A stretch of 49,381 bases of DNA from Gammaproteobacteria bacterium (GTDB lineage: Bacteria > Pseudomonadota > Gammaproteobacteria > Thiohalospirales > Thiohalospiraceae): assembly GCA_015491735.1 (NCBI GenBank), contig WFVH01000010.1, positions 1 through 49,381 on the forward strand, given 5' to 3'. The notes below the pieces were generated by a model. That model had not been told where the DNA came from and searched no databases. It saw only the letters and a program-made list of their open reading frames with translations. Each line of letters opens with the position of its first letter. Position 1 is the first letter of the stretch. The position numbers and the translations under genes were made by a program. This document shows positions 44,961-49,381 of this stretch, in pieces.

Positions 44961-45097
44961 ATACTCCTGAAATCCGCCTTTTCTGCGTTGAAAATGGCCA
45001 TTTGCCCTGTGTAAACTCACCTTTTTCGCCTTGAACTGACAAATTTCAGCGCAACCTGAGCAATCACCTCCGCGGGTTCAGCTTGCTGAGTAGTTGC
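44952..45097 (+). repeat. Degenerate MITE copy E
   Basis: The unit keeps the element order: CTCCTGAAATCCGCC, TTCTGCGTTGAAAATGGCCAT, GTGTAAACTCACC, TTTTTCGCCTTGAACTGACA, AATTTCAG, CCTGAGCA, and the end GCTGAGTAGTTGC. Many substitutions separate it from copies C and D, so it is old. It accounts for much of the 340-bp gap between the TPR gene and the cytochrome gene; I see nothing else there. Confidence 0.8.
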
Positions 45098-45208: not shown

Positions 45209-46804
45209 CTATCTCCTCGACCAGCTCCACGAAGACCACCAACTCCAGATCTCCCACCAGCGGGGGCGGCCGGAGGGTGACTTGCATCCCACCACACTGG
45301 CAGTCGCGCTGCCAAAAACCGAGTCCACCCTGACAGCATCATCAACCGTGGCGCCGCAGTCGGCAACGATGCTTGTATCGGTCCAGGTTTGAATATCACA
45401 CTGCTTTGCAGCGCCAATATCGGTAACCCCGGTTCCGGAGCCATCCGCGTCGAGGTAACTGTTGAATCCTGAACCGGTGATGGTGACGGTACCGTGGCTG
45501 CAACTGACCGAATCGACGGTGACTGCGGGGGTTACCACCAGGTTGACCGGTACGCTGGCCATGGCGCCATTGACGGCATTAACGCTGTAGTTTCCGGGGA
45601 CTAGAGTGGGAGGAATCCGTACCTCCATGGTTGTGAAGGTAACACTCTCCGGCACGAGTTCAAGCGGTGGCTGTTCGCTATTGGTGTGGTGTAAAACAAT
45701 CCGGGTGGCAATATTGTTGTCAGCCGTTGCCACCAGATAGCCCGCGCCGGTAAGCAGTAGTAGCGGGGAGGTTCCAGCGGCTACTTTCGCAATATTTGTC
45801 TGGTGAATTTCGGGAAGCAGCGGCCCGAACAGCGGCCTGTTTTCTGTTGAGGCAGCCATAACCGATGCTGCCGCGGCGCTGCCGCCCATATGGCAACCCA
45901 TGCAATCCAAGGAGGTGCCAATATGACCAAAGAAGGGCTGTTCCTCGTAAGAACCAGCTGTGCCGTTGCCATCCGAATCAGCCTGGATGCTGTGCAGTGA
46001 AGTTGGAGCATGGCATCTGACACAGCCCTGCAAGGTATGATTTGGCGGGGTAGCATCATGGCACAGGCTGCAGGTATGTACCGAACCGCTGCCCGGCTGT
46101 CCCAGCCCGGTTCCGTGGTGGGTCATCATGTTGGCATTGGGGCCGGGAACGAGCAGGCCGCTGGCGTCATCTGTTCCGCCGTTGTGGCAGTAACGGCACC
46201 CTCCCTGCCGGTGCCCGGTCAGGCCAAAGTCGCCGTCTCCAAAGCCGGGATTGGGACTCATGTGGGAAATAACCTTCAACTGCCAGGGCTCCTCGTTGGG
46301 ATCATCAATCAAACTACCGTGACAGGCGTTGCACTCTGCGGCTTGTGCTTTGGCTGTCAGATGGTGAACCGACGCAACTCCCGGTTTTTGCTGATGGCAG
46401 TTAAGGCAGTTCCGAAACGCGGGTGTACCGGGTTCAGGTGAAAAAGCAAAATAGCCACCTGAGGGACGGGCGGGATCCTCGATCCAGTCCAGGGCATGGC
46501 AAGTGGTACATGAGTGGGTGCCGTCAGGGGATTTTTCCGGGAAGGGAGAGGCCGAGTATTTGCCAATCGGCCTACCCACGTGAAGATGATGCCGATCGGG
46601 CAGATACCCCTGTTTGACGGGAGCGGAGCTGCTGTCCGGACTAAAATGGCAGCTACCGCAAACATCCGTTGTCATATTGTTGAATATGCTGTCAGGTATG
46701 CCAAGCTTTTGATTTACCGGAGATGGTGGGGTGCTTGCCCAGGTAACAATGCTACTGAAACCTAACAGCAGCAACAAGAGTGCCCCAGATATTTTGTTAG
46801 CCAA
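45209..46804 (-). CDS. Periplasmic octaheme cytochrome c with C-terminal IPT/TIG-like domain
   Basis: I choose the TTG at 46804 (LANKISGALLLLLLGFSSIV) because GGAGA lies 7 bases upstream and the signal peptide follows at once; cleavage is likely after TWA. Eight CxxCH haem sites follow: CGSCH, CTTCH, CLNCH, CNACH, CRYCH, CSLCH, CVRCH and CMGCH, at about residues 49, 99, 133, 158, 203, 245, 261 and 301. The C-terminal part (about 350-515) has beta-rich Ig-like sequence with HGTVTITGSGFNSY, typical of an IPT/TIG fold. The last 20 residues (RPRWWEIWSWWSSWSWSRR) are Trp-rich and look unlike a normal ending, so a frameshift near 45270 is possible. Electron transfer in the periplasm is the likely role; substrate unknown. 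Confidence 0.88.
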   Translation of the reverse strand: MANKISGALLLLLLGFSSIVTWASTPPSPVNQKLGIPDSIFNNMTTDVCGSCHFSPDSSSAPVKQGYLPDRHHLHVGRPIGKYSASPFPEKSPDGTHSCTTCHALDWIEDPARPSGGYFAFSPEPGTPAFRNCLNCHQQKPGVASVHHLTAKAQAAECNACHGSLIDDPNEEPWQLKVISHMSPNPGFGDGDFGLTGHRQGGCRYCHNGGTDDASGLLVPGPNANMMTHHGTGLGQPGSGSVHTCSLCHDATPPNHTLQGCVRCHAPTSLHSIQADSDGNGTAGSYEEQPFFGHIGTSLDCMGCHMGGSAAAASVMAASTENRPLFGPLLPEIHQTNIAKVAAGTSPLLLLTGAGYLVATADNNIATRIVLHHTNSEQPPLELVPESVTFTTMEVRIPPTLVPGNYSVNAVNGAMASVPVNLVVTPAVTVDSVSCSHGTVTITGSGFNSYLDADGSGTGVTDIGAAKQCDIQTWTDTSIVADCGATVDDAVRVDSVFGSATASVVGCKSPSGRPRWWEIWSWWSSWSWSRR

Positions 46805-46974
46805 GTTCTTGTCTCCGCGCGCCCTATTTGCCGGGGTGGCCTGATGTTGGCCACCGTGAAGCCAGAAAAGCACCAAAGGGAAATTCTTTCGCTGGTTATT
46901 CTTTCTTTACTGGAGTATCGGTTGCGGAAACCTGCAAATCAAACCGTCCATGTGACAGGTTTGTAAATTCCGAT

Positions 46975-47126
46975 GTAACTATTCAGCTCACCCCTGAAAT
47001 CCGCCATTTCTGCGTTGAAAAATGGTCATTTACACGCGCAAACTCCCATTTTTCGCCTTGAACTGACGAATTTCAGGGGCAATCTGAACAGTTACCGGCT
47101 TGTTTCATACTATGCTGAATAGTTAC
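46975..47126 (+). mobile_element. MITE copy D, 152 bp, perfect target-site duplication
   Basis: The element has the same perfect 13-bp inverted ends as copy C and differs from it at only two positions by my reading. It is flanked by the identical 8-mer ATTCCGAT at 46967-46974 and 47127-47134. It inserted upstream of the cytochrome gene, about 170 bp from the start. Confidence 0.93.

Positions 47127-48955: not shown

Positions 48956-49381
<426 letters not shown>

Follow-up and report, generated by a model that had tools for sequence, protein, structure and literature searches.

The LPXTG, PEP-CTERM and GlyGly-CTERM tags have each led to an enzyme and to a route of surface display. Among nanowire cytochromes, OmcZ of Geobacter sulfurreducens (filament: PDB 8D9M) is made as a preprotein of 50 kDa, in which an octahaem domain at the N-terminus is followed by tandem immunoglobulin (Ig) domains at the C-terminus. 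The subtilisin-like OzpA removes its C-terminal part, the whole of which is lost from the mature protein, and operons similar to that of OmcZ are widespread (PMC9473688). Close OmcZ homologues have been reported from ANME archaea (Chadwick et al., PMC9012536).

The window (i.e., the whole stretch of 49,381 nucleotides that was analysed) contained an OmcZ-like gene whose product ended in a Trp-rich tag. Such a tail closed OmcZ-like genes in 8/8 genomes of the window's genus (g1) and in the two genomes (G086 and G213) of a second gammaproteobacterial genus from another family (g78). Because the conserved 20 residues are also found at the end of unrelated exported enzymes, the tag looks like a so far undescribed address label of the C-terminus, presumably for the cell surface. 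No description of such a C-terminal tag was found in the literature searched; the sole match of tail peptide strings in papers was irrelevant, a paper on rhythm in dyslexia.

The window gene and its kinship to OmcZ

The following features were located in the window:

44963..45049, no strand: MITE-like repeat copy downstream of the gene (repeat comparison)
45209..46804, minus strand: OmcZ-like octahaem cytochrome gene, 531 aa, from a TTG start at 46804 to a stop at 45209 (ORF list and homology)
45212..45271, minus strand: Trp-rich C-terminal tag, residues 512-531, GRPRWWEIWSWWSSWSWSRR (tail comparisons across g1 and g78)
45284..45817, minus strand: C-terminal Ig/IPT region, residues about 330-507 (alignment to OmcZ chain 8d9m_A as far as residue 500)
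45887..46729, minus strand: octahaem domain, residues about 26-306 (alignment to OmcZ chain 7lq5_A)
46733..46804, minus strand: putative N-terminal signal peptide, residues 1-24 (sequence, judged by eye)
46813..46816, minus strand: GGAG, Shine-Dalgarno-like, 8 nt 5' of the TTG (direct reading of sequence)
46990..47076, no strand: MITE-like repeat copy upstream of the gene, with 36-nt inverted arms (repeat comparison)

An alternative, longer start (TTG 46876) would give 555 aa. The exact end of the protein was RPRWWEIWSWWSSWSWSRR. When the window protein was compared with the PDB using phmmer, only two sequences matched: 8d9m_A (473 aa; E 3.5e-34; window residues 7-500) and 7lq5_A (258 aa; E 5.6e-21; window residues 25-306). 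The marks of an OmcZ-type protein were found in the form of homology over both the octahaem and the Ig parts and of eight c-type haem sites, the latter agreeing with the eight CxxCH motifs that the initial annotation had counted. The Ig-like C-terminal part that it had also proposed fits the tandem Ig domains expected from OmcZ homology; the TIG/IPT match itself was below the family's cut-off (E 0.015). Its view that octahaem plus Ig is an uncommon combination did not survive the comparison. Since the published OmcZ is an octahaem and Ig preprotein, the layout of the window gene is the OmcZ layout, and the homology rules out an unusual domain fusion. When the window protein was modelled together with one homologue by AlphaFold, the mean pLDDT was 31.7, which is uninformative for the tail. 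A plasmid search with the whole window protein gave no match.

The likeness to OmcZ (GSU2076; PDB 8D9M and 7LQ5) and OzpA extended in part to gene order, as subtilisin-family genes adjoined omcZ-like genes on G000 C80, G006 C194, G003 C206, G004 C40 and G001 C167. The C80 gene is a paralogue from the window's own genome (G000); beside the window copy there was no subtilisin-like ORF. The g78 genomes contained no subtilisin of the family at E<=1e-30. Unlike OmcZ of Geobacter, which occurs without the tag, the tagged genomes each had several OmcZ-like genes with it. The Geobacter chain has 13 residues past the aligned part, which leaves no room for a 20-residue tag. As Geobacter OmcZ loses its C-terminal part and its precursor has no room for the tail, OmcZ filaments as such do not require it.

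Several other neighbours were observed. A tetrahaem protein with a Gly/Met-rich end was encoded directly before the OmcZ-like gene in L033:4201-4842, L069, L070, L081, L082 and L098, and a SurA-like PPIase was found near OmcZ-like genes in both genera. On G000 C80 (L033:3-3784) a PilY1-like protein and a pilin-like gene, recognised by eye, were upstream of the OmcZ-like and subtilisin genes. The two repeats that bracket the window gene were 87 nt long, 80% identical, in the same orientation and outside the ORF, confirming the bracketing by MITE copies that had been described; no link between them and the tail was found. At its end the window runs into a 16S rRNA gene (48956-49381, model positions 1-423).

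Occurrence, carriers and conservation of the tail

A close homologue of the window protein (L065) was 75% identical to it and had the identical last 20 residues in the same frame. It came from the MAG JAJRUX01 (Gammaproteobacteria bacterium isolate Dive96_bin10.247), and the name Dive96 is given to a sample in work on the Longqi vent field (Southwest Indian Ridge; PMC9769843). The initial annotation had suspected a recent frameshift, a suspicion to be dropped if a close homologue had the same Trp-rich ending in the same frame; comparison at the C-terminus identified L065 as such a homologue. The second reading frame that it had pointed out (GDLELVVFVELVEEI) does exist in the window and reads as a charged helix, which is what would favour a frameshift. 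This frame, however, is a shadow of the TGG-rich frame, and in most g1 tails the same alternative frame reads ..xLELVVxxELV.. as well. With the ending and frame of L065, 41 canonical tails in 10 genomes and the tail in every genome of the genus, a frameshift is ruled out as the origin of the Trp-rich end, and there is next to no probability of a recent frameshift or sequencing error near 45230-45290.

Tails in g1 and g78 followed the 20-residue consensus GRPxWWxIWSWWSSWSWSRR. A whole-protein search of 56 related genomes matched eight, which were all of the g1 genomes, and the best matches reached the last residue. A tail profile (A1) built from 21 tails matched the same eight genomes (best E 1.3e-12 to 9.8e-12), gave single matches in three further genomes (E 0.086 to 0.83) and found nothing in four genomes of sister genera of the window's family. 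Of 369 gammaproteobacterial genomes sampled across the class, the tail was clear in five: three of g1 and the two of g78, the latter with five tails each. Exactly these five also had whole OmcZ-like matches with E below 1e-20. Weak tail matches (E 0.003-0.05) occurred in seven more genomes; around those of G156, G368, G366 and G066, four of the seven, there was no tailed ORF. Tailed genomes made up 8/12 of those in the window's order and 2/3 of those in the order of G086. A phylum sample of 398 genomes yielded the window's own genome alone. GTDB contigs yielded 150 pattern stretches, of which one was confirmed (L065); viral contigs yielded 27, none of them confirmed. The PDB contained no match to the tail profile. 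Among 290 ORFs from tail neighbourhoods, which were chosen because they hold tails, the last 20 residues contained 7 Trp in 31 (the canonical tail), 4-6 Trp in 4 (degenerate tails) and 0-3 Trp in the remaining 255.

Altogether, the tail was found on six protein types, at the very end of every carrier: OmcZ-like octahaem proteins, trihaem Ig proteins, S8 proteases, Amidase_3-like proteins, an M23 peptidase and a polysaccharide lyase. In addition to OmcZ-like proteins, the g1 carriers were trihaem Ig proteins (L067, L071 and L072), Amidase_3-like proteins of G000 (L031; E 8.2e-6, just under the cut-off) and G005 (L032; E 3.5e-7, over the cut-off), and S8 proteases with a degenerate tail beside omcZ-like genes (G000 L033, G003 L070 and G006 L069). 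The g78 carriers were OmcZ-like proteins, the M23 peptidase (L096; PF01551, E 4.4e-12) and the polysaccharide lyase (L099; PF14099, E 2.7e-20). The lyase and the M23 peptidase each came from one genome and the amidase-like proteins from two. Carriers had signal peptides, as judged by eye at their N-termini, so that the general mark of a sorting signal was present, namely a C-terminal homology region common to otherwise unrelated proteins with putative signal peptides. A Pfam scan of the amidase-like, M23 and lyase carriers gave no Ig/TIG match, and the tail therefore moves on its own. The three protease tails may be by-products of duplication, because they are degenerate and accompany an Ig domain like that of OmcZ.

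Around the rarer carriers, G000 and G005 each had a protein of unknown family encoded directly beside their tailed amidase-like gene (L031:1636-2631 and L032:623-1699). Elsewhere in G000 (contig C37, L066:6811-7005) a 64-aa frame ended in a tail-like sequence close to the G000 amidase tail (NRHDDDGRPEWWGIWAWWLSWSIR plus a few residues) and is probably a relic of an amidase-like gene. The tailed lyase was near genes that resembled glycosyltransferase genes by eye, perhaps an exopolysaccharide locus.

Selection acted on the tail at the protein level. The canonical set contained 41 tails of 19 residues (31 g1 and 10 g78). Mean synonymous and non-synonymous differences were 0.72 (pS) and 0.13 (pN) among g1 tails and 0.55 and 0.11 among g78 tails; pN is lowered because the canonical tails were picked for Trp and Arg at set positions, and Trp codons allow no synonymous change. 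The synonymous difference between non-haem and other tails was 0.81 in g1 and 0.60 in g78, and the tails are therefore not recent DNA copies. Codons have diverged while residues were kept, and the tail sequence follows the genus, not the protein: tail identity was 0.75 between different proteins of the same genus vs. 0.61 between proteins of the same type from different genera. All five non-haem canonical tails were nearer to the tails of their own genus (5/5). The g78 gene nearest to the window gene (68% identical) nevertheless had a tail of the g78 form, the commonest of which was GRPDWWSLWSWFASWGWSGR. Across 31 OmcZ-like proteins, mean pairwise identity was 0.76 in the 19 tail columns, 0.38 in the preceding 190 residues and 0.64 in the octahaem part; by column identity the tail ranked 24th of 537 windows.

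Both genera showed a strict period of 3 (g1: WWS-IWS-WWS-SWS-WSR-R; g78: WWS-LWS-WFA-SWG-WSG-R), with an aromatic residue at tail positions 2, 5, 8 and 11. The 120-degree hydrophobic moment was greater than that of 98-99% of shuffles (three angles tried), whereas alpha-helical amphipathicity (100-degree moment) was not above shuffles. This pattern argues against an amphipathic alpha helix and for a predicted extended or 3-10 ladder. The thrombospondin-type motif WSxWSxW likewise has a Trp at every third residue with Ser between. The likeness is one of resemblance only, and the tail differs in being an isolated 20-residue end without a TSR domain.

In one protease family the Trp tail is exchanged with GlyGly-CTERM-like tails. 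The subtilisin family comprised twelve genes in 7/14 genomes searched, all of them g1 (7/8). Three genes ended in the Trp tail, three in a Gly-rich and hydrophobic GlyGly-CTERM-like sequence (assigned by eye for G006 C164 and G002 C195) and six in neither, and G000 had one subtilisin of each end type. Its C12 subtilisin matched TIGR03501 in one scan (17.7 bits; cut-off 15.5); in a second scan TIGR03501 was not listed and only related rhombosortase-target families appeared, below cut-off. Swapping between LPXTG, PEP-CTERM and GlyGly-CTERM was noted by Haft and Varghese, who used the same argument (PMC3237569).

Possible roles of the tail

A special role, the other option that the initial annotation had offered for the tail, is supported, as the tail is a conserved module common to unrelated exported proteins. 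With moderate confidence, the Trp-rich end is read here as a C-terminal sorting or retention signal and the window carrier as an OmcZ-type nanowire cytochrome precursor. The precursor would be exported via its signal peptide, after which an envelope factor (a sortase-like enzyme or a receptor) would recognise the tail that closes the Ig domains, and the tail would keep the precursor at the membrane or on the cell surface. Next, an OzpA-like subtilisin would cleave the precursor between its octahaem and Ig domains; the octahaem part would be free to polymerise, and the tailed stump would stay behind. The same address would be carried by the subtilisin (three genomes), the wall amidase-like protein, the M23 peptidase and the polysaccharide lyase. 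Recognition in trans, the destination and the order of cleavage are what we infer. Against a sorting signal, the tail has no Leu-rich transmembrane helix, its basic end is short (one or two Arg only) and the samples searched had it in two genera only; neither a cognate enzyme nor a receptor was found among the sorting enzymes sought (rhombosortase and exosortase).

This last result would suit the main rival, a self-acting anchor in which the Trp/Arg tail partitions unaided into the membrane interface, LPS or glycan without a dedicated factor. The Wimley-White interfacial energy of the 13-residue core is strongly favourable, at about -11 to -13 kcal/mol, and such an anchor would suit enzymes acting on wall and polysaccharide. 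However, the exact genus-specific conservation across unrelated proteins (WFA..GW..GR in g78 vs. WWS..SW..RR in g1) exceeds what partitioning needs, and the lack of alpha-helical amphipathicity above shuffles also counts against it; we consider this anchor unlikely, if worth keeping in view. A divergent substrate signal of the rhombosortase (GlyGly-CTERM) or exosortase (PEP-CTERM) already in these genomes is less probable still. Rhombosortase (TIGR03902) was over cut-off in 8/8 g1 and 2/2 g78 genomes and in 0/4 other genomes of the window's family (f1), in G007 its gene adjoined a tailed gene, and the layout of motif, hydrophobic stretch and Arg end resembles that of GlyGly-CTERM and PEP-CTERM. 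Yet G315 had both enzymes and no tail, and no tailed gene was near the other seven g1 rhombosortases in the stretches fetched, some of them short contigs. The presence of rhombosortase is accounted for by coexisting GlyGly-CTERM proteins, with matches over cut-off, if weak (E 0.001 to 0.09), in 5/8 g1 and both g78 genomes. With its gene adjoining a tailed gene in only 1/8, rhombosortase is an unlikely partner of the tail. Exosortase was found in 7/10 tailed genomes (5/8 g1 and 2/2 g78); the three g1 genomes without it were 85, 86 and 91% complete, and incompleteness may explain some of these. Neither enzyme is convincing as a partner. Among the tailed proteins scanned, no CTERM-domain model matched, TIGR03501 included, which speaks against a known CTERM family for the Trp tail; TIGR03501 did match a protein without it (L076:132-2141, 16.0 bits).

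Two further explanations appear very improbable. The tail copies could have spread as DNA, by gene conversion or a mobile element, without function at the protein level, in keeping with the palindromic repeats around the window gene and the probable relic in G000 (L066); but the repeats are outside the ORF, and synonymous sites are strongly diverged between tails whose residues were kept. A Trp ladder that formed part of an electron path or a haem dock of nanowire cytochromes would agree with cytochromes being most of the carriers, and is equally doubtful given that haem-free enzymes have the same tail and that maturation is expected to remove the C-terminal part.

A bolder form of the sorting signal, offered tentatively and more probably wrong than right, is a separate sorting system of a few gammaproteobacterial genera. 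It would combine the period-3 Trp/Ser ladder, (PhiWS)x4-R, with a dedicated envelope factor and a common export site for the nanowire precursor, the maturation subtilisin, wall-cutting enzymes and the polysaccharide lyase. If true, envelope opening and nanowire release would occur at one place. 

The tag also offers a 20-residue handle with which the surface proteins of uncultured bacteria, and perhaps the factor that reads the tag, could be found. These bacteria may exchange electrons with minerals, and one relative came from a hydrothermal vent.

Comparison with known C-terminal tags

The Trp tail shares with PEP-CTERM/exosortase the broad principle that exported proteins are tagged at the C-terminus, and differs from that system in having neither a PEP motif nor a transmembrane helix and in occurring in 3/8 tailed g1 genomes in which exosortase was not found. 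Like the surface tag of MYXO-CTERM/myxosortase (PMC11980579), it is C-terminal and lineage-restricted and probably addresses the surface, but it has no invariant Cys (profiles A1 and A2), and the amidase-like tails have no nearby Cys.

The likeness to GlyGly-CTERM/rhombosortase is broader and includes a short C-terminal region common to unrelated exported proteins, a sequence of motif, hydrophobic stretch and basic end, and subtilisin carriers (PMC3237569). GlyGly-CTERM works as an independent motif, and the Ig fold of VesB is used together with it (Roberts et al., PMC13393428); the Trp tail too comes after Ig domains, in the cytochromes. In contrast to GlyGly-CTERM, the Trp tail has a period-3 Trp/Ser core in place of a Leu-rich transmembrane helix and GRP in place of SGGS, its proteins gave no TIGR03501 match, and its co-distribution with rhombosortase is inexact. 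Beside these known tags, a genus-tuned tag that has no transmembrane helix and is common to nanowire cytochromes and enzymes that cut the envelope would stand as a further type, and it would link nanowire biogenesis to cell-surface sorting.
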